A stretch of DNA of 32,870 nucleotides from a bacterium (GTDB lineage Bacteria > RBG-13-66-14). The DNA lies in contig DATKYS010000105.1 of NCBI GenBank assembly GCA_035528375.1, positions 1-32,870 of the forward strand, read 5' to 3'. Position numbers and translations under genes: made by a program. The notes under the pieces were generated by a model. It was given only the letters and a program-made list of their open reading frames with translations. It was not told where the DNA came from and searched no databases. This document shows positions 4,966 to 30,976 of the stretch, in pieces; position 1 is the stretch's first letter, and the number at the start of each line of letters is the position of its first letter.

Positions 4966-6300
4966 ATGAGGGAAAAGGTATTTCTGGTTCTCATCGCGGC
5001 GCTCCTGCCGGCGCTGGCCCTCCCCGTGTACGGACCGCGCGCCATGGCCCTGGGGGGCGCCTACGTCGCCCTGGCCGACGACGAGGCCTCGATTTACTAC
5101 AACCCCGCCGGGATGGCCGCCGCCGGGGACTACTTCGCCTGCGTCCCCTGCTTCGCCATCGCCACCGACGACCGCATCACCGAGGACTTCGACACCTACA
5201 TCGCCCTCAAGGACGACATCTGGCACGCCGACACCGGCGGTGGCCTCGGGCCGCTGTTGGACTCCATTGACCGGACGGCGGACTTCCTGGAGGACCTGGC
5301 CGGGGGGGACCCGCCCGGCGTCACCGGCTACCTCTCCTACGGCGTGGGCGTGATGCTCGGGCCGCTGGCGGTGAGCTGGATCGGCGGCGGAACGGGCCAG
5401 GTCGTGCTGGAGCCCGACGCGGACACCGGCCGCCTCATCCCCGATTTCTACCTCGAGAGCTACGAGGCGGTGGCGCTGTTGTACCTGGCGGGCTACCTGG
5501 ACTCGGAGCAGCTCGCCACCCTCTGGCCCACCTACCCGGACCCCTCCGGATTCGTGGGCGACGTGGAGGGCGACGGCCTCGGGATAACCGAGAACCGGAC
5601 CGGCGCCCGGCTGGAAAACGAAGCCCGCCAGGAGTTCATCGTCACCTACGCCAACTACCTCTGGCGCTCCGGGCGCGGCGACCGCTTCTTCGTCTCGGCC
5701 GGCCTCAACATCAAGTACGTCGTCACCCAGAGCTATCAGAACCGCTTCACCGCCGGCGATTCCGGGATGTACACCACCGGGCCGGAGTGGATCACACGGC
5801 AGGTGCTCGCCACGCGGCCGACCCTGGGGCACGCCGTCAGCGCCGACGTGGGACTGTTGGGCCAGTTCACCCCCTACTTCCGGCTGGGCCTCCTGGTGCG
5901 CGACGTGATCCCCGCCCCCATCTCCTGGGACGAGCCGGTAACCGGGGTCTCCGACCGCCTGAAGCCCCAATGGCGGATAGGCGTGGCCGGCCAGGTGGTC
6001 CCGGACCTGTTGACCTACGCCCTGGACGTGGACCTCACGCGGGACGAGGGGTCGTTCTCACCCCAGCAGGACCTGGCGGTGGGCGTGCGGGCGGACTTCC
6101 TCGACGGGGCCCTGTGGGGCGGCGCCGGCCTGCGCTTCAACCTGGCCGACGAGACACAGCCTCCGCTCTACACCCTGGGAGTGGGGATGCACCTGGCGGG
6201 CGTCCGCCTCGATTTAGCCGTGGGCCTGGGGCGGATAGACACCTCGGGGGAAGCCAACACGTATTTCAGCGCCGCGGGGGCGGTGGGCTTCTCGCTCTGA
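4966..6300 (+). CDS. Outer-membrane beta-barrel protein, paralog of the preceding gene
   Basis: A 444-residue predicted barrel. The signal peptide MREKVFLVLIAALLPALA leads into VYGPRAMALGGAYVALADDEASIYYNPAGMAAAG, the same N-terminal signature as the gene before it. Other shared landmarks are a LAVSWIG-like strand, NIKYVV, LGLLVRDVIPAPISW and the C-terminal AAGAVGFSL strand. The two genes lie 96 bases apart in the same direction and probably arose by tandem duplication, though they have diverged widely. GGGGGACGGCCG precedes the ATG and includes a moderate ribosome site. A repeat hairpin at 6330-6351 with a T-rich tail may end transcription. Confidence 0.8.
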   Translation: MREKVFLVLIAALLPALALPVYGPRAMALGGAYVALADDEASIYYNPAGMAAAGDYFACVPCFAIATDDRITEDFDTYIALKDDIWHADTGGGLGPLLDSIDRTADFLEDLAGGDPPGVTGYLSYGVGVMLGPLAVSWIGGGTGQVVLEPDADTGRLIPDFYLESYEAVALLYLAGYLDSEQLATLWPTYPDPSGFVGDVEGDGLGITENRTGARLENEARQEFIVTYANYLWRSGRGDRFFVSAGLNIKYVVTQSYQNRFTAGDSGMYTTGPEWITRQVLATRPTLGHAVSADVGLLGQFTPYFRLGLLVRDVIPAPISWDEPVTGVSDRLKPQWRIGVAGQVVPDLLTYALDVDLTRDEGSFSPQQDLAVGVRADFLDGALWGGAGLRFNLADETQPPLYTLGVGMHLAGVRLDLAVGLGRIDTSGEANTYFSAAGAVGFSL

Positions 6301-6326
6301 GTGGCGGTTGTTCGGTTCCGAAGACG

Positions 6327-6640
6327 TAGGGGCCGACCTTCAGGTCGGCCCGTTTTAATAAGGCAGCCCTCACCCCGCGTTTTGCGATGACGTAGGGGCG
6401 GGTGTCCACACCCGCCCGCGGGCCTGATGCGGAAACGGGCGACCGTGGACGGTCGCCCCTACGGGGAATTGCGCGGTTCGAAATGTAGGGCGGGGAATCC
6501 TTTCCCCGCCGCGAATTGCGATGACGTAGGGGCGGGTGTCCACACCCGCCCGCGGACCGACCTAAACGGCGCGCCGTCGGTCGCCCCCACGGGAAACTAC
6601 GCGGCCTTAAATGTAGGGCGGGATTTCCTACCCCCGCCGT
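6327..6640. repeat. Cluster of seven modular hairpin repeats
   Basis: No gene lies between 6301 and the PGK start. Hairpins found, with nine-base arms and four-base loops unless noted: 6330-6351 (GGGCCGACC arm), 6396-6417 (GGGCGGGTG arm), 6437-6458 (GGGCGACCG arm, inverted orientation), 6489-6510 (GGCGGGGAA arm), 6530-6551 (GGGCGGGTG arm again), a long-loop or degenerate copy at about 6556-6590, and a degenerate GGCGGG-type copy at about 6612-6639. Each carries CGTAGGG or TGTAGGG on one outer side. The first is followed by GTTTTAATAAGG, suiting a terminator for the barrel gene. Read in frame they give peptides such as ADLKVGPYV, which should not be taken for genes. Confidence 0.9.
6330..6356 (+). 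terminator. Repeat hairpin with T-rich tail after the second barrel gene
   Basis: Arms GGGCCGACC (6330-6338) and GGTCGGCCC (6343-6351) around TTCA, then GTTTT. It lies 30 bases past the barrel stop codon in the orientation that would terminate that transcript. Confidence 0.5.
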
Positions 6641-6704: not shown

Positions 6705-6736
6705 GCCACCGTATGACGAACCAGGGAGGTCGCGTC

Positions 6737-7921
6737 GTGCGCAAGCTCTTCATCGAGGACCTGGAGCTCGCGGGGAAGCGGGTGCTCGTGCGCCTGGACT
6801 ACAACGTCCCCGGCGACGACGAGGGCAACGTGACCAACGACGCCCGCATCACCGCCTCGCTGCCCACTCTGCATTACATCCTGGCGAAGGGGGCCTCGGC
6901 CGTCCTCTGCTCCCACCGCAGCCGCCCGAAGGGCGACGAGCCGCGCTACTCCCTCCGGCCGGTCGCGGCGCGGCTGGAGGAGCTGATGGGGCTCCGGGTG
7001 AGGATGGCCCGCCGGGGCGCGGTGGTCAGCGACGAGGCGCGCAACCTGGCGGCTTCTCTCGAGCCCGGCGAGCTCATGATGCTGGAGAACCTCCGCTACG
7101 ACCCCCGGGAGCAGCAGGGCCGGGACGAGCTGGCCCGCGAGCTGGCCTCCCTGGCCGACCTCTTCGTCAACGACGCCTTCCCCGTCTGCCACCGCAAGGA
7201 CACGAGCGTCGTCGGCGTGCCGAAGTTCCTCACCTCGGCCTACGGCTATCAGCTCCGGGAGGAGGTCGAGAACCTCAGCCTCCTGTTGGGCGATGTCCAG
7301 CGGCCCTACGTGGGCATCATGGGCGGGGCGAAAATTTCCACCAAGCTCGGCGTCGTCAAGAGCTTCCTCGGGCGCGTGGACCGGCTCCTCGTCGGCGGCG
7401 GCATCGCCTACACCTTCCTGGCCGCCCTGGGAAAAGAGGTCGGCGGCAGCATCCACGAGCCCGACTACCTCGAGTACGCCAAGGACCTCCTCCTGCGCCA
7501 CGCCGACAAGATCGTGCTCCCCACGGACAACTACGTGGTGGAGAGGATAGACCCGGCGTGCGAGCCCCGGCTGGTGGAGGAGATACCGGCGGACCGCATG
7601 GCGGTGGACATCGGGGACGCCACGCGCCGGCTCTTCGCCGAGGAGATAGCCCGGGCGCGGACCGTCTTCTGGAACGGCCCGGTGGGCTACTTCGAGGACG
7701 AGCGCTTCGCCGAGGGGACACGCATGGTGGCCAGGGAGGTGGCCAAACTGAAAGACGCCGGCGCCTTCACCGTGGTGGGCGGCGGCGATTCCGTGGCCGC
7801 CGTCGAGGACGCCGGGCTCGATTCGGAGAGCTTCAGCTTCGTCTCCACCGGCGGCGGGGCGTCGCTGGTTTTCGTCCAGGGCAAGGAGCTCCCCGGCATC
7901 GAGGCCCTGACGGACAGGTAG
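6737..7921 (+). CDS. pgk: Phosphoglycerate kinase
   Basis: A 394-residue glycolytic enzyme interconverting 1,3-bisphosphoglycerate plus ADP and 3-phosphoglycerate plus ATP. Family landmarks are KRVLVRLDYNVP, SHRSRPKG, LMMLENLRYDP, NDAFPVCHR, IMGGAKISTKLGV, FWNGPVGYFE, VVGGGDSVAAV and FVSTGGGASLVFVQGKELPG. The start is placed at GTG 6737, six bases after AGGGAGGT; the resulting N-terminus MRKLFIEDLELAGKRVLVR fits the family. An in-frame ATG at 6713 would add eight residues. Substrate-site motifs are slightly unusual: SHRSRP replaces SHLGRP and the usual GTAHRAHAS reads PVCHRKDTS, but the basic residues that bind phosphoglycerate (H60, R63, H152, R153) remain. It stands alone, not with gapA or tpi. 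Confidence 0.95.
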   Translation: MRKLFIEDLELAGKRVLVRLDYNVPGDDEGNVTNDARITASLPTLHYILAKGASAVLCSHRSRPKGDEPRYSLRPVAARLEELMGLRVRMARRGAVVSDEARNLAASLEPGELMMLENLRYDPREQQGRDELARELASLADLFVNDAFPVCHRKDTSVVGVPKFLTSAYGYQLREEVENLSLLLGDVQRPYVGIMGGAKISTKLGVVKSFLGRVDRLLVGGGIAYTFLAALGKEVGGSIHEPDYLEYAKDLLLRHADKIVLPTDNYVVERIDPACEPRLVEEIPADRMAVDIGDATRRLFAEEIARARTVFWNGPVGYFEDERFAEGTRMVAREVAKLKDAGAFTVVGGGDSVAAVEDAGLDSESFSFVSTGGGASLVFVQGKELPGIEALTDR

Positions 7922-7935
7922 GCCACCGTAGCGGT

Positions 7936-8304
7936 CTCCCTCTCCCCGTGGGAGCGGCGCGCCAACGTGATTAAGGGTGAGGGCTACCTTTCAAATAAAC
8001 GGGCCGACCTGAAGGTCGGCCCCTACGTCATCACAGCCCAGGGTGAGGGGTGCGATGGTCTCCTCCCCCCTCTTGGGGGGAGGCTCGCCTACGGGCTAGG
8101 GAGAGGGGTGCAGCGGTCCCCTCTCCCTCTTAGGGAGAGGCTCGCCTACGGGTTAGGGTGAGGGTAAGGTTCGTGAACGTGAAAACGGCGGCCCACGGCC
8201 TCCCTCTCCCCGTGGGAGCGGCGCGCCAACGTGATTAAGGGTGAGGGCCACCTTATAAAAAACGCGGCGGCCCACAGAGGACTCGTCCTACGGGGCCGCC
8301 CTAC
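7936..8304. repeat. Repeat cluster between convergent pgk and glycosyltransferase genes
   Basis: The 417-base gap holds no gene. A 55-base segment occurs at 7936-7990 and 8200-8254 with one difference. Each copy is the CTCTCCC-type half of a composite unit. The first is joined to a GGGCCGACC-arm hairpin (8001-8022) and the second to a GGCGGCCC-arm hairpin (about 8265-8304), both in inverted orientation. Two further CTCTCCC-type hairpins at about 8061-8107 and 8118-8166 share the segment GAGGCTCGCCTACGGG. On the minus strand the last unit reads hairpin, then GCGTTTTTTATAAGG, so it could end the glycosyltransferase transcript. Confidence 0.85.
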
Positions 8305-8338: not shown

Positions 8339-9214
8339 TCACAACGTCCGGCCCACCAGAAGCCGATAATAATCCCGCAACCGGAACGCGCTACGGCGGC
8401 GGTCGAAAAACCGGCGCACCATCTCCCGGCCGCCACGGTTGGGCCCCGAGTCCAGGGCCTCCCGGACCGCGCGGTCGAGCGCGTCGTCGGTGCGGGCGGT
8501 GAGGACGTGGGGCAGCCGGCCGCTCCACACCACCCGGCGCCCCCGGGCCAGCGCCTCCAGCACCATCCTCCCCTGGCCGTCGTGCCGGGTCGGGCGCAGA
8601 AGCACGCGCACCCCGGCGTAAACCGGCGACATGTCGTCGCGGACACCGAGATGCTCCCAGTTGGCGGGCGCGTCGGCGGGGGCCGGTCCGGGACCGCAGG
8701 AGCGGAACCGCACGTCGGGCATCCCGTGGGCCAGACGCACGGCCCGCGGCACGCCGTAGAAATCCCCGCGCTCGGGAGGGATGTAGACCAGCACGGAGGG
8801 CTCCTCGGGCCAGGGGGCGTCCTCGACGGCGAGCTTGTCCGAGAGGACCGGCTGGAAACGGGCGCGCACCCCGAGCCCGGCGAGCTCCTCGACCAGCCCG
8901 GCGCTGTCGGCCAGGTGCAACTGGATGAAGGGCAGGCTCAGGCGGAGCTTGAGCCGCTCCCGGCCCCGGCGCACGGCGAGGACGTCGCTCCCCATCCAGT
9001 GGGCCACCGTCGCCAGCCCCATGAGCCGGGCGGTGACCAGGCCCCGCCAGGCCATGGGCGGGTAGAAGACGTGGAGGAGGTCCAGGCCGGCCAGGGTCCC
9101 CGGGGTGAGGTCGGCGAGCTCCCGGGCGTCCAGGCCGATTTCCCGCAGCTCACCGGCGAGGAACCCCGGCGCCTCCTCCATCCCGTACACGCCTATTCTG
9201 ACCGCTCGCGTCAT
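8339..9214 (-). CDS. GT-B fold glycosyltransferase-like protein
   Basis: A 291-residue protein. The N-terminal half has a Rossmann-type start (RAVRIGVYGM) and HWMGSDVLAV, recalling the HxGSD segment of GT-B glycosyltransferases. The C-terminal half has RDDMSPVYAGVRVLLRPTRHDGQGRMVLEALARGRRVVWSGRLPHV, matching the nucleotide-sugar-binding region of family 4-type enzymes, where EALA..G..VV is typical. Donor and acceptor cannot be told. It is shorter than the usual 350-400 residues. ATG 9214 was chosen; an upstream in-frame ATG at 9253 adds 13 residues, and neither has a good ribosome site. It is an orphan, with no other surface polysaccharide genes nearby. It lies downstream of dcd on the same strand, but a weak terminator-like hairpin touches its start. 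Confidence 0.7.
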   Translation of the reverse strand: MTRAVRIGVYGMEEAPGFLAGELREIGLDARELADLTPGTLAGLDLLHVFYPPMAWRGLVTARLMGLATVAHWMGSDVLAVRRGRERLKLRLSLPFIQLHLADSAGLVEELAGLGVRARFQPVLSDKLAVEDAPWPEEPSVLVYIPPERGDFYGVPRAVRLAHGMPDVRFRSCGPGPAPADAPANWEHLGVRDDMSPVYAGVRVLLRPTRHDGQGRMVLEALARGRRVVWSGRLPHVLTARTDDALDRAVREALDSGPNRGGREMVRRFFDRRRSAFRLRDYYRLLVGRTL

Positions 9215-9232
9215 GAAAAAAGCCCGCTCGGG
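9215..9232 (-). terminator. Short hairpin with T run just before the glycosyltransferase start
   Basis: On the minus strand GCCC, a GAGC loop and GGGC are followed by six T residues that abut the ATG at 9214. The four-base stem is short. It may end the dcd message or simply be part of the ribosome-binding region. Confidence 0.35.
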
Positions 9233-9268
9233 CCCGGCACGAAAATCGAACACCGACGCACACCACTA

Positions 9269-9814
9269 CTAGGAACCGGAAACGGTTCGTTGTCCCTGAA
9301 AAACGCTCTGAAACTCCCGAACCGGTGTGCCGAACACCTGCTCGACGATGAGCTGGCACACCTTCAACCCCGGTTTTAAAAGGATGGTCAGAGGCCCGAC
9401 ATTCGTGATTTCGAGCGTTATCCTTCCCCTGAAGCCGGCGTGAATCGTGGGGGCGTTGACGTGGATTCCCAATCCCAATCGAGCCAGGGAGCTGCGTCCC
9501 TCGACGCGGGCGGCCAGACGAGACCGGTTAGGGAGGGACACGGTTTCCGCAGTCAGGGCAAGAAGGAAGGAACTGGGATTAACGCTGACCGAACCATCCG
9601 AATTGACCGGCACATCAACTTGAGACTGAGCCGCCAGTTCCCGATAGGATTTGGTCGGGTTGACCGGAGACGGCGGTGTGTTCCATCGCTTGAACTCGTC
9701 GCCCAACGTGAGGTCAATGCTCGAAGTGGAAATGCAATCCTCCGTCGGCATCGGCTCAATAATAAGCTGCCTATGAAAGAGGGCAGCTTTCAGCTCGGAG
9801 TCACAGAGAATCAT
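9269..9814 (-). CDS. dcd: dCTP deaminase family protein
   Basis: A 181-residue member of the dCTP deaminase/dUTPase-like trimeric family, which converts dCTP to dUTP and ammonia, a source of dUMP for thymidylate. MILCDSELKAAL is the usual N-terminus and SSIDLTLGDEF follows. The active-site signature VEGRSSLARLGL (S108, R112) and the catalytic glutamate in GRITLEITNVGP (E135) are present, and the C-terminus ends near FQGQRTV as in relatives. The longer frame begins at 9859, but ATG 9814 matches the family start. It lies seven bases after the stop of the small upstream gene, so the two are probably co-translated. Base composition (about 57% GC in a hand count of 9601-9720) is lower than in neighbours. 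A bifunctional deaminase-dUTPase cannot be excluded. Confidence 0.87.
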   Translation of the reverse strand: MILCDSELKAALFHRQLIIEPMPTEDCISTSSIDLTLGDEFKRWNTPPSPVNPTKSYRELAAQSQVDVPVNSDGSVSVNPSSFLLALTAETVSLPNRSRLAARVEGRSSLARLGLGIHVNAPTIHAGFRGRITLEITNVGPLTILLKPGLKVCQLIVEQVFGTPVREFQSVFQGQRTVSGS

Positions 9815-9821
9815 GGGGAAC

Positions 9822-10076
9822 TCACGCCGGAAGCGGTATGAGCAGCTCGCGGGGCACACGGATGCGGCTGCCGGTGGTCAGTGTCTCCTGGGGCAGGTCT
9901 ATCAGGATTTCATCGTCAACCTGATACACGGGAAAAACCCTTAAAAGGTCGCCCACCAGACTGCTCGCGTCCACGTAGAGGTAAAAATCGCCCTTCTTTG
10001 TGGAAATAGTCACGAACCTCTCATGGGAGAACATACCGGGTTCGACTTTGACTTTGAGCGCCAACTTATCGTTCAT
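9822..10076 (-). CDS. Small conserved-looking protein upstream of dcd
   Basis: An 84-residue protein that I do not recognise. The sequence from MNDKLALKVKVEPGMFSHERFVTIS through KKGDFYLYVDASSLVG to QETLTTGSRIRVPRELLIPLPA looks like a compact all-beta domain without signal peptide or membrane segment. The in-frame ATG at 10097 lies only 11 bases after the -10 box, so ATG 10076, with AAGGAG 12 bases upstream, is preferred. The gene is directly followed by dcd with a seven-base gap, and both share one strong promoter and lower GC, which suggests a two-gene unit. No function is assigned. Confidence 0.6.
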   Translation of the reverse strand: MNDKLALKVKVEPGMFSHERFVTISTKKGDFYLYVDASSLVGDLLRVFPVYQVDDEILIDLPQETLTTGSRIRVPRELLIPLPA

Positions 10077-10108
10077 CGCATTCACCGTCTCCTTCATGCC
10101 CTCAAGCC

Positions 10109-10137
10109 AGTATAGACGGCTGTATTTGAATCGTCAA
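10109..10137 (-). promoter_or_regulatory. Strong promoter of the small gene-dcd unit
   Basis: On the minus strand TTGACG (10137-10132), a 17-base spacer and TATACT (10114-10109). Transcription would begin near 10102, about 26 bases before the ATG at 10076. Confidence 0.7.
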
Positions 10138-10145
10138 GCGTTGAG

Positions 10146-10676
10146 CTAGTTTAGCGTGTACTCCGCCAGGTGGCGGGTCTCGAAGTCGCCAAAACCCTCG
10201 GCGACCAGGCCGATCCCCCGGGCGTACACCTCCCAGGTGGTCTCCAGCTCCACCTTGTAGCAGTTGTCGTAGTCCCCGTCGGGGGTTTCGTAGGTGAAGT
10301 CGGCCTCCACCAGGGTGGCCTCGCCGGAGCCGTCGGCGTAGAGCGGCCAGGTGGCGCCCTCCTCCAGCGGCTCTTTGAGGAGGACCATCGTGTACCGCGG
10401 GTCGTCGGGAGGCGGCCACGCCGGTTGGCGGCGGCAGGAGGTATCGGTGCAACGGAGCGCCAGTCGGGCCACGCCCTCGTCCCAGCAGTACCAGCCGTTC
10501 TCTTCGTCGGTGACGGTCACCTCGGCCAGGTCGCCGAAGCCGTCCCGGTAGGTCCACGAGTCGCCCACCGCCAGCGGCCAGAAGCCGGCGCCCAGCTCCG
10601 TAGAGCCCGTAACGTCCTCGCAGGAGACCAGGAGCGCCGCGCCGAGCGATACCGAAAACGCGAAAGCCTTCACCAT
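10146..10676 (-). CDS. Predicted lipoprotein of unknown function
   Basis: A 176-residue protein with a lipoprotein signal: MVKAFAFSVSLGAALLVSCEDV, where LVSC is the lipobox and Cys19 the lipidated residue. The mature part starts with a GFWPLAVGDSWTYRDGFGD segment, a motif (PLxxGxxWxY) common in secreted bacterial lipoproteins of unknown role. Four further cysteines in the middle (WYCW, LRCTDTSC) and one in DNCYK could form disulfides. ATG 10676 was chosen because of GAGGTG just upstream. The longer frame to 10841 would add an improbable Arg/Gly/Pro-rich leader. It lies 221 bases downstream of the serine hydrolase gene on the same strand. Confidence 0.7.
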   Translation of the reverse strand: MVKAFAFSVSLGAALLVSCEDVTGSTELGAGFWPLAVGDSWTYRDGFGDLAEVTVTDEENGWYCWDEGVARLALRCTDTSCRRQPAWPPPDDPRYTMVLLKEPLEEGATWPLYADGSGEATLVEADFTYETPDGDYDNCYKVELETTWEVYARGIGLVAEGFGDFETRHLAEYTLN

Positions 10677-12112: not shown

Positions 12113-12540
12113 CTGCTTTCCTCGCTTGGAGAAAACCTGGTGTCAGTGGAGCCGGTATCCGCTATTTTGGGCGACGAAAAAGCCGCTTTCCGCGTTGGAG
12201 AAAACCCGTTTACGGGGATCGAAACCCGTCGGCGAATCGCCTCGGGCGCGAACGAGACCGCAACGACCGCACCGCCGTCTTCGCTCACGGGACCGAAACC
12301 CGTCGAGGTCGCCTCTCCCGGTTTCCCGGTATCCGCGACCGGCCCTTACGACCTCCCCCGCACGCGATGAAGGACCCTAAAGACAATGGGCATCGCCTAA
12401 GCCCTTCGGGGAAATAGCCCCTTGCCGGCTCAACCTCCCACCGTGCGCAGGGATGAGCCAGCCCCATCGGGGAACGCCGCGTGACCCGGTGCAGGAATTC
12501 CTCCGGACACCCCCCGGCCTCACCCCGGCCCACCGCGGCG
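12113..12540. other. 428-base gap with two related hairpins
   Basis: No gene is seen. Two hairpins with near-identical arms stand at 12212-12229 (ACGGG..CCCGT around GATCGAAA) and 12287-12303 (ACGGG..CCCGT around ACCGAAA), 75 bases apart. A short TTGGAGAAAACC motif recurs at about 12125 and 12195. The region looks like a decayed repeat array upstream of the serine hydrolase. No convincing promoter was found. Confidence 0.5.
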
Positions 12541-13893
12541 TCACTCGCCCCGCTTCTCCTCGAAGAGGATGATGAGGTCAATCTCGTCGGGGGTCACGCC
12601 GGAGCGCAGGTTGCGGCTGACGCTGGCGAAGTAGCCGGTCTCGAAGAGCTCGCGGACGGCGGTGAAGACCTCGCGGCTGTCGAAGGGCGCGCCGACGAAG
12701 ATGCCGTGGGCCGCCAGAATCGGCTCCACCACGTCCACCGGGGTATCCACCAGCCCCCGGAGCTCCACGGCGCCCAGCGTCGCCGACTCGCCGGTCACCA
12801 CCTCCAGCTCCAGGGACACCGCCCGGCCGTCGAACTGGTCCTCGGTGCGTACCTCGAGGGAGACGCCTCCGATGGGCCGGCCGCGGAAGTAATCGCGGAT
12901 GCGCTCCAGGCCGTCGTTGACCGACTCCTCGGTGTACGGCTGGCCCGGCTTGAGACCGAAGGCCTCCAGGATGCCGTCCCGCTCGTCGTTGGCGTTGCCG
13001 TCCAGGATGACCTGGCTGATGACCGGCCCCGCGGGTGGGCCCTCCGCCATCTTCCGGCGCACGTAATCCAACAGGCTCTGCGTGTCGGCGTCGTCGGGCC
13101 TGACGTCCAGGGCGTCTTCGAGGTAATCCTCCGCCGAGCCCCAGTCGCCGATGACGGTGTAGATGTAGCCCACGCGCTGGTTGGCGATGAAATCGTCGGG
13201 GAGGGCCTCGAGCACGCGGCGGTAGTGCTCGTAGGCGTCGCCGTAGTTCCTGGCCCAGACGACCAACAGGTCGGCCAGGTTGGCGTTGGCCTCCAGGTTG
13301 TCCGGCTCCAGGGCCAGGGCGTAGCGGAACTGGTCCACCGCCTCCTCGTAGCGCTCGGTCACCATGAAGATGTAGCCCAGGTTGACCCGGGCGAAGACGT
13401 AGTCGGGCTTCTGCTCCAGGGCCTGGCTGAACCTGGTCTCCGCCTTGGTGGTGAGGTCCTGGGCGAGGTAGACGTAGCCGAGGTTGGCCAGGGCGATGGC
13501 CGAATCGGGTGCCAGGGAGACGGCGCGCTCCAGCTTCGTCTGGGCCTGCTCGAACTCCCCGCGCATGGAAAGGAGCGTGCCCAGGGCGGTCAGGGCGTCG
13601 GAGTAGTCGGGCCAGGAGTCAATGGCGGCGCCGTAGAACTGCTCGGCCTCCGCCAGGCTCCCGTCGAGCTCGTCTATGAGCCCCAGGTAGAAGTACGCCT
13701 CGGCGGCCGAAGTCGGCTCCTCACCCTCGGGCGTGCTCGTGAGGTAGTCCACCAGGAAGAGCTGGGCGTCCTCCAGCCTCCCGTCGCGGAAGGCCGTGAT
13801 GGCCGGGGTCAGCGCCTCGTCCACCTCGCGCTCTATCCCGAAGGCGGCGACGACGAGCAGCGCAAACAACAGGGCGGTCGCTTTACGCACCAC
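12541..13893 (-). CDS. TPR protein with two C-terminal POTRA-like domains and no barrel
   Basis: A 450-residue exported protein. After a signal-like segment (ATALLFALLVVAAFG) come about seven tetratricopeptide repeats (residues 30-280; for example NLGYVYLAQDLTTKAETRFSQALEQKPDY). Then come two segments resembling POTRA domains of BamA/Omp85 proteins. The first is at 291-368 (ISQVILDGN..LKPGQPYTEESVNDGLERIRDYFR) and the second at 371-448 (LGAVELRG..IFVGAPFDSREVFTAVRELFETGYFASVSRNLR). The protein stops where a barrel would begin. The start is GTG 13893 (GGGAGG five bases before); an adjacent GTG at 13890 is equally possible. It follows cdaR by 47 bases, so it likely belongs to the cdaA operon. 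A periplasmic scaffold role is inferred. Confidence 0.8.
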   Translation of the reverse strand: MVRKATALLFALLVVAAFGIEREVDEALTPAITAFRDGRLEDAQLFLVDYLTSTPEGEEPTSAAEAYFYLGLIDELDGSLAEAEQFYGAAIDSWPDYSDALTALGTLLSMRGEFEQAQTKLERAVSLAPDSAIALANLGYVYLAQDLTTKAETRFSQALEQKPDYVFARVNLGYIFMVTERYEEAVDQFRYALALEPDNLEANANLADLLVVWARNYGDAYEHYRRVLEALPDDFIANQRVGYIYTVIGDWGSAEDYLEDALDVRPDDADTQSLLDYVRRKMAEGPPAGPVISQVILDGNANDERDGILEAFGLKPGQPYTEESVNDGLERIRDYFRGRPIGGVSLEVRTEDQFDGRAVSLELEVVTGESATLGAVELRGLVDTPVDVVEPILAAHGIFVGAPFDSREVFTAVRELFETGYFASVSRNLRSGVTPDEIDLIILFEEKRGE

Positions 13894-15861: not shown

Positions 15862-16277
15862 CGTAAACGCGGCGGCCCGCGGTCTCCCTCTCCCTCCGGG
15901 AGAGGGTCGGGGTGAGGGCCACCTTAAAAAAACGCGGCGGGGACTAAAGTCCCCGCACTACGTCACGAATCGTTGCCGCGATCCGTAGGGGCGACCGTCC
16001 ACGGTCGCCCGTTCCCGTGGTTGCCGAACGTAGGGGCCGACCTTTAGGTCGGCCCGCGGGAGGGTCTGGAGACCCGCCCCTACGTCATCGCAATCGCGGG
16101 TAGGGGCTGCCGCGGCCCCCTCTCCCTTTTAGGGAGAAGGTTGGGGTTGAGGGTCGGGGCCGGGAACGTAAACGCGGCGGCCCGCGGTCTCCCTCTCCCT
16201 CCGGGAGAGGGTCGGGGTGAGGGCCACCTTAAAAAAACACGGCGGGGATGGGAATCCCCGCCCTACGTCATCACAGA
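15862..16277. repeat. Repeat cluster in the divergent cdaA-folD intergenic region
   Basis: No gene is present. An 82-base composite segment is duplicated at 15862-15943 and 16167-16248 with one base difference. It contains a CTCTCCC-type hairpin, GGTGAGGGCCACCTT, a seven-A run and the start of a GGCGGGGA-arm hairpin. The two copies then continue with different hairpin loops (ACTAAAGT versus ATGGGAAT). Between them are hairpins at 15989-16010 (GGGCGACCG arm), 16034-16055 (GGGCCGACC arm), a copy with one arm mutated at about 16056-16080, and another CTCTCCC-type unit at about 16117-16158. The genes on both sides point outward, so these copies do not sit at any gene's 3' end. Confidence 0.9.
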
Positions 16278-28186: not shown

Positions 28187-28455
28187 CGTAGGGGCGGGTG
28201 TCCACACCCGCCCGTTTTTCCGCCGATGCGCGCCGAAATGTAGGGCGGGGATTTCAATTCCCGCCGCGGCGGCCCGCAGAGGGGCCGCCCTACATCCCGC
28301 CTATTGCGATGACGTAGGGGCCGACATGCGGTCGGCCCGTTTTTAATAAGGTAGCCCTCACCCTTAATCCCTCTCCCACATGGAGAGGGAAAATACGGCC
28401 AGTAGCACACCCTGGCGCACCCGTTGCCGCCCTCTCCCACTGGGAGAGGGAAAAT
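28187..28455. repeat. Repeat cluster between barrel gene and ribD
   Basis: No gene is seen in 28140-28464. Hairpins: 28192-28213 (GGGCGGGTG arm) followed by GTTTTTC, a degenerate GGCGGGGAT-arm copy at about 28239-28265, a GGCGGCCC-arm copy at about 28266-28293, and a GGGCCGAC-arm copy at about 28318-28338. The last runs on as GTTTTTAATAAGGTAGCCCTC and then into a CTCTCCC hairpin to about 28390, the clearest forward-orientation composite unit in the window. Another CCCTCTCCC-GGGAGAGGG hairpin is at about 28431-28450. Barrel and ribD genes converge here, so the hairpins could serve as terminators for both. Confidence 0.88.
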
Positions 28456-29702: not shown

Positions 29703-30058
29703 TCTCCCTCCCCCCTCTGGGGGGCGGCGCGCCGACGGGTCGGGGTGAGGGTTGCCGCTATCCCCTCTCCCTTTTAGGGAGAGGGCTAGGGTGAGGGTCG
29801 GGGTTGGTAGGTGAAAAGGCGGGCGGGTGTGGACACCCGCCCCTACGGCCGCACATCGCTAATCAAATCCGTAGGGGCGAGAAGTCCACGGTCGCCCGCG
29901 GGCCGACCTGAACGGCGCGCCGACGGTCGGCCCCTACGTCATCGCAAATACGGGGCGCGGCCCGGGCGTGAACGCGGCGGGGTTATGAAACACCGCCCTA
30001 CATTGGGTTGTATGACGGTCAACGACGCAACGGGCGGGTGTGGACACCCGCCCCTACG
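29703..30058. repeat. Repeat cluster between ribD and the GATase gene
   Basis: The 477-base gap contains no gene. A CTCTCCC-type hairpin with nine-base arms lies at 29763-29785 and a degenerate one at about 29703-29750. Modular hairpins: 29821-29842 (GGGCGGGTG arm, inverted), about 29871-29898 (GGGCGACCG type with a damaged left arm), 29900-29933 (GGGCCGACC arms around a 16-base loop), about 29978-30003 (GGCGGGG type) and 30032-30053 (GGGCGGGTG arm, inverted). The last lies 34 bases past the GATase stop in the orientation that could end that minus-strand message. The long-loop version also occurs in degenerate form at 6556-6590. Confidence 0.88.
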
Positions 30059-30763: not shown

Positions 30764-30976
30764 GGGCGGGTCAGGAGATCCGCCCCTACATCATCGCAAT
30801 CGCGCCGACGGGCTAGGGTGAGGGTCGGGGCCGGGAACGTAGAGGCGGCGGGGTTAGGTATCTGCGCCCGAAGGGAAAACCCCGCCCTACGTCATCGCAA
30901 TTCGCGGCGGCCCGCGGAGGGGCCGCCCTACGTCATCGCATGGGTGAAAGCGGGGGAAGGAATTCCCCGCACTACG
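30764..30976. repeat. Repeat cluster in the divergent GATase-arsR region
   Basis: The 401-base gap holds no gene. Four hairpins in inverted orientation lie at about 30764-30788 (GGGCGGGT type), 30846-30889 (GGCGGGGTT arms around a long loop), 30906-30930 (GGCGGCCC type) and 30950-30976 (GCGGGG type with an imperfect loop). The first three end with TACATCATCGC or TACGTCATCGC and the last with ACTACG. A GGGCTAGGGTGAGGGTCGGGG remnant of the second repeat type is at 30810-30830. As both flanking genes start here, terminator duty cannot explain this cluster. Confidence 0.88.

Follow-up and report, generated by a model that had tools for sequence, protein, structure and literature searches.

REP elements headed by GTAG form a superfamily in which 24 families, distinguished by their stems and loops, have been described (PMC3733652). 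Elsewhere, REP classes numbering in the tens, each following its RAYT, have been reported (PMC3686654), as has RAYT/REP coevolution (PMC2817692). According to a published model, classes decay once their RAYT is lost (PMC3686654), and recognition has been tied experimentally to GTAG plus features of the loop and stem (PMC8266576). Because stems in this superfamily normally vary behind an unchanging GTAG (PMC3733652, PMC3686654, PMC2817692), the hairpins described here belong to a known kind. The sequence-only reading, which had called stem variability on a fixed tag unusual, therefore does not hold for GTAG, but the remark stands, as far as the same sources go, for the longer sequence TTGCGATGAC, which is found across families.

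We conclude that the hairpins of the window (the whole stretch of 32,870 nucleotides analysed) are very probably GTAG-headed REP elements, which occur singly or as inverted pairs (BIME/REPIN-like) and comprise several coexisting families, each of them propagated by a RAYT of its own (a tyrosine transposase of the Y1 HUH type). The kind of element is known; less ordinary are the long tag across families and one hairpin replacement between sister species. Our comparisons covered the window's own genome (G000, an uncultured Coatesbacteria MAG of 144 contigs) and the congeners G001, G002 and G003, with about 0.87 Mb of sequence sampled in pieces.

Hairpins of the window and their placement

The elements are built of GTAG followed directly by the stem, and the unpaired GTAG is conserved beside a short palindrome, as in GTAG-type REPs. 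The constant outer tag proposed at first reading is thereby narrowed: GTAG(GG), the known REP head, is universal, whereas GATGAC (at most one mismatch) precedes GTAG in just 85 of 190 copies, mostly of types A, B, Bl, E, F and G. Other stretches stand before GTAG in D copies (AAAT) and in C copies (mostly CCC/CTC). As claimed from the sequence, the two arms pair within each type and differ between types, and the focus-gap hairpins folded as single-stranded DNA with z-scores of -4.3 to -4.9 against shuffles. The stems read GGGCGGGTGT-cc-ACACCCGCCC in type A, GGGCCGACCT-tc/tt-AGGTCGGCCC in type B (Bl is B with a longer inner loop), GGGCGACCGT-cc-ACGGTCGCCC in type C, GGCGGCCC-ctcygc in type E, GGGCGGACCT-tc/tt in type F and GGGCGGGTCT-tt in type G, while type D consists of GGCGGGG plus caps, its D2 form being GGCGGGGAA-tcct-TTCCCCGCC. 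Lower stem and loop cap are associated nonrandomly, a few particular caps going with each lower stem, which rules out free modular mixing of the two. Long structured inserts such as GGCATAGCTCGCTACGCTCGG were seen in the loops of D-type hairpins (window 30847-30890; L121 at about 1590-1660; L123 at about 1880-1990) and recur in the genus, including beside a D-type RAYT.

The focus gap extends from a gene ending at 6300 to one starting at about 6713-6737, which we take from its sequence to encode phosphoglycerate kinase, and holds five intact and two degenerate copies. The first is a plus-strand B hairpin (6326-6351, with -tc- between its arms) that carries GAAGAC, one mismatch from GATGAC (6320-6351 in all). 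It is followed by a GATGAC-tagged A hairpin on the plus strand (6386-6417, hairpin 6392-6417), whose inverted partner, a C hairpin on the minus strand (6437-6462), completes a head-to-head heterodimer with a 19-nt spacer. Next come a plus-strand D2 hairpin with AAAT (6481-6510, hairpin 6485-6510) and a second GATGAC-tagged A hairpin on the plus strand (6520-6551, hairpin 6526-6551). The latter forms a head-to-head heterodimer with a degenerate long-loop B (Bl) copy 2 nt away on the minus strand (6554-6590), and a degenerate D-type REP on the plus strand, with two mismatches to D3, lies at 6613-6638. The four types said to lie within about 190 bases are indeed present, with B, A, C and D2 inside 6326-6510.

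Elsewhere in the window, minus-strand copies of type B (tagged, 8001-8032) and type E (long-loop form, 8266-8304) are followed by plus-strand C (15985-16010) and B (16030-16055) copies, the latter facing a tagged A/G variant on the minus strand (16058-16089) head to head, and by a tagged D2 copy on the minus strand (16241-16272). A further group comprises A (28188-28213, plus), D2 (28240-28265, plus), E (28268-28293, minus) and a tagged short B variant, GGGCCGAC-atgcg-GTCGGCCC (28308-28338, plus). The remaining copies are all on the minus strand: A (29821-29846 and 30032-30057), tagged Bl (29900-29943), D3 with two mismatches (29976-30001), a tagged A/G variant (30764-30795), a tagged D-type copy with a long loop (30847-30896) and a tagged E (30906-30937). 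Our count for the window is about 24, not the roughly 28 given before. A second dispersed repeat, CCCTCACCC..CCCTCTCCC-loop-GGGAGAGGG, adjoins REPs and is also present without them; in the window it occupies 8062-8128, 15886-15906, 16191-16211, 28368-28450 and 29763-29785. Window positions 9205-10154 (950 bases) and 12157-12557 (401 bases) are replaced by about 21 and 2 bases, respectively, in the syntenic G001 contig C275.

Across 332 kb of G000, GTAG followed by a hairpin was found 164 times, the top rank among all 256 tetramers (median 11). In the own genome, GTAGGGGC-N14-GCCC gave 370 matches (6 for the reversed control), and GATGACGTAGGG gave 158 genome-wide compared to 1 in the control. 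Copy density was 423 per Mb in a sample rich in REPs; contigs that had not been selected for tags had 175 per Mb. Confinement to one contig, as an assembly artefact would produce, was looked for and not found, given the 370 matches across the genome and the presence of the long tag in three sister species. The pattern scan also returned records of the congener Candidatus Coatesbacteria bacterium RBG_13_66_14. An Anaerolineae contig matching the pattern was set aside, as its hairpin is of a GGGTTTC type and it has no DNA similarity to the sampled G000/G002 sequence. No hairpin matched phage records. Elements of the form GTAGGGGC-hairpin-GCCC with other stems occur in unrelated phyla (G060, G037, G045, G029, G088 and others), with up to 221 copies and ten Y1_Tnp matches in G060.

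None of the 190 copies lies inside a gene predicted by a codon-usage gene finder written for the analysis, and both orientations occur between genes, as first described. Convergent gaps are densest (47 copies in 8.7 kb), tandem gaps hold 95 copies in 49 kb and divergent gaps are lowest (14 in 11.9 kb). Orientation in tandem gaps is unbiased (50/95). Neighbouring copies are arranged head-to-head (22), tail-to-tail (22) or head-to-tail (36), and inverted neighbours are mostly heterodimers; the head-to-head pairs include no homodimer (0/22) and have a 2-bp spacer in 15 cases. No inserted pair facing a clean empty site stood out. This strict intergenic placement, unbiased orientation and heterodimeric pairing match published GTAG REPs (PMC3733652) and speak against a dedicated role in termination.

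It is accordingly very improbable that the hairpins function at the RNA level, chiefly as intrinsic terminators or 3'-end stabilisers, and persist because a hairpin plus T-run ends transcripts. GTTTTTT does follow several copies, convergent gaps are enriched and the focus gap contains one terminator-like match. However, only a minority carries a T-run (C 0/17, G 1/9) and just 16 of 28 T-run copies are co-oriented with flanking tandem genes, and on these two grounds we rejected intrinsic terminators. In addition, the scan yielded 1 terminator compared to 0.6 in shuffles, the content of orthologous gaps is not conserved, and the hairpins had no match in Rfam.

RAYT genes and their flanking stems

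The search for a RAYT-like (Y1) transposase suggested by the sequence-only reading was successful: G000 contains a single Y1_Tnp gene (R0, contig C91; 157 codons; PF01797, E=1.4e-14), and the hairpins flank it. Its protein scores 109 bits against NF047646 (REP_Tyr_transpos equivalog; NCBI cut-off 80) and matches the structure PDB 4er8 (TnpArep), the only solved relative found. The RAYT alignment contains an HLH motif and a conserved WQ..YYD motif. R0 lies between genes that we take to be purF and purM, with a type F hairpin upstream and an inverted Bl plus another F downstream. The gap between these two genes (L010:11623-12388; L214, L213, L212) differs in every congener: in G000 it holds the RAYT and F/Bl hairpins, in G001 a C/A pair, and in G002 and G003 unrelated genes plus REPs.

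The congeners carry other RAYTs, with 32-36% identity to R0 in the alignment. G001 has three: A and C flank the first, D3 and a D2-like copy that contains a long insert the second, and D1 the third; G002 has one, flanked by D1; G003 has two, one with D3/D2 and one with D2. By contig, the flanks are A and C on C310, D3 (plus D2-like) on C240 and C454, D1 on C353 and C41, and D2 on C11. In a maximum-likelihood tree, RAYT lineages agree with the flanking stem (D1 pair, 100/99; R1-R3, 95/95). R0 falls in a group (85/90) with RAYTs from other families of Coatesbacteria, whose hairpins mostly share the cap kind of the R0 hairpins, YCT-TY-AGR. Since stem types flank different RAYTs and RAYT clades follow the stem type, multiple stems on GTAG are the known signature of coexisting REPtrons, some of them RAYT-less.

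Each family would thus be a non-autonomous element spread by its own RAYT, which presumably mobilises the family flanking it. By analogy with known systems, the RAYT would recognise the GTAG head and a folded single strand, and cut and join beside it. The A, C, D and E families of G000 may date from RAYTs that were later lost or that the assembly lacks, with F/B retaining one, and mosaics may arise by insertion or strand transfer beside older REPs. Copy divergence and share relative to RAYT presence fit weakly with the model of class decay after RAYT loss (PMC3686654). G000, the genome with the F/B RAYT, has its least diverged copies among types B, F and Bl, and D1 makes up 14% of copies in G002, where a D1 RAYT is present, compared to 6% in G000 (p=0.0009; p=0.09 when only G000 contigs not picked for tags are used). 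Type A, the most abundant family in G000 with 72% of copies exact, is an exception to this pattern, because no A-type RAYT was found in the genome's 144 contigs; the gene may be unassembled or unbinned in this MAG.

Turnover, hairpin exchange and the long tag

G000 and G002 share about 89% identity in aligned DNA. Among 25 syntenic gaps with a REP in at least one of the two, none has the same REP set in both (0/25), and six gaps devoid of N runs show clean presence/absence. We therefore rejected fixed, vertical inheritance for most sites. The focus gap itself, with its four types among the five intact copies in G000, holds a single intact copy in G001, and in G002 its copies are ordered differently. 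In a few copies that seem to be orthologous, point changes are confined to the cap. At one apparently orthologous REP (L284 at about 1080-1127, L257 at about 16160-16262), the loop in G002 approximates the reverse complement of that in G000, and stem and flanks are unmoved, a picture that an in situ inversion of the hairpin would give.

The locus of R1, the A/C RAYT of G001, exists in three states. It is empty in G000 (4 bp in place of 610 bp in G001), contains a lone F hairpin in G002 (..CGGAATCGGGAATAGACTC-GTAG-F-GCATCGGTGCTATAATCTC..) and, between the same unique flanks, holds an A-rayt-C-A REPtron in G001. As identical flanks enclose F in one species and A plus RAYT in another, hairpin F of the one corresponds to A plus RAYT of the other, and this locus is a true hairpin exchange, one event. 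The empty sites to be looked for in relatives are therefore present, here as in the six gaps above, and whole stem-loop swapping, suspected from the window alone, is seen directly at this orthologous site; fixed positions with no stem exchange, the opposing outcome, were looked for and not found. When more orthologous swaps were sought by matching flanks, most hits were paralogous repeat contexts, and because such candidates are confounded by repeats we claim only one exchange.

These data also bear on whether the hairpin is variable cargo of a classical MITE moved by a DDE transposase via terminal inverted repeats. Different hairpins do have TTGCGATGAC in common as their left tag, and in many cases also a right flank (T-run, AAGG, CCCTCACCC). 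Yet the left tag is absent where no GTAG-like hairpin follows, and the right flank also occurs alone and is thus an adjacent repeat. Moreover, no target-site duplication is visible by eye at the empty R1 site and RAYT genes lie between the hairpins, which makes this reading very improbable. The REP/MITE-like label given at first is accordingly kept in its REP part, on the strength of a Y1/RAYT gene flanked by hairpins and of empty sites, and disfavoured in its classical MITE part. Least credible of all is a single ancestral hairpin family that diverged in place by compensatory point mutation with neither exchange nor mobility: one compensatory pair separates some neighbouring types (F/B; A/G) and the cap-only changes fit it, but types are discrete with near-identical copies genome-wide and a different RAYT each, orthologous gaps turn over, and different stems stand between identical unique flanks at the R1 locus.

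Having preferred RAYT-borne REP families, we turn to their tag. TTGCGATGACGTAGGG occurs 92 times in G000 and 54 times each in G001 and G002 (reversed control, 0). It was absent from the congener G003, which nevertheless has 108 GGGC-class hairpins, from ten other Coatesbacteria genomes and from two genomes of other phyla. This long tag (TTGCGATGAC before GTAG) is found in at least six stem families, with different RAYTs. Restriction of the tag to three sister species, across families, indicates a recent lineage-specific extension common to families with different RAYTs. An empty chassis, that is, a tag lacking a GTAG-like hairpin, was not found; the search gave only degenerate heads and a few unrelated near-matches, and a pre-existing insertion target of this kind was rejected. 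Sharing of the longer tag is not explained by one family with one RAYT and remains unusual. The tag could have spread among REP copies by gene conversion, or through strand transfer by a RAYT at the tag boundary. A tentative scenario, to which we give low confidence, is that in the ancestor of the three sister species the new 5' extension TTGCGATGAC joined REPs and was captured by at least six hairpin families of different RAYTs through hairpin exchange behind the fixed tag (a RAYT might, for example, transfer strands where tag and GTAG meet), and that families have since swapped hairpins at occupied sites rather than only inserting at new ones. If so, the targets of RAYTs would include sites already occupied by a REP, and mosaic clusters would be accounted for.

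Comparison with described systems

A literature search for REPs in Coatesbacteria found no report, and the present data document multi-family REP/RAYT systems in a candidate phylum beyond the coverage of the cited REP papers. With one locus in three states (empty, lone REP, other-class REPtron) and a datable tag in only three of the genomes searched, this genus offers a natural test bed for the open question of how REP classes replace one another.

Group 3 TnpAREP/REP pairs, such as the S. maltophilia REPtron Sm (Corneloup et al. 2021, PMC8266576), likewise have a perfect palindrome immediately following GTAG, and the bases of their short loop are important to the enzyme, which fits the RAYT-clade-specific caps in our sequences. 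Their published cleavage sites are CT (or CA), whereas GATGAC ends in neither; the copies flanking R0 and R1 read ..GACTC-GTAG, unlike the GATGAC tag. The GTAG superfamily (Di Nocera et al. 2013, PMC3733652) shares with our elements an unpaired GTAG head, a short perfect GC-rich stem, a short loop, several families per genome, head-to-head heterodimers, intergenic sites downstream of genes and copies that flank a RAYT. Different here are the phylum, Coatesbacteria, and the presence of TTGCGATGAC before GTAG in at least six families, which the description consulted does not mention. In fluorescent pseudomonads and stenotrophomonads (Nunvar et al. 2010, 2013; PMC2817692, PMC3686654), the REP class also follows its RAYT, related strains differ in their RAYTs, and abundant RAYT-less classes are read as RAYT loss or orthoswitch. 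In contrast to those systems, one orthologous site here carries a lone REP in one sister species and, in a second, a REPtron that belongs to a different class.
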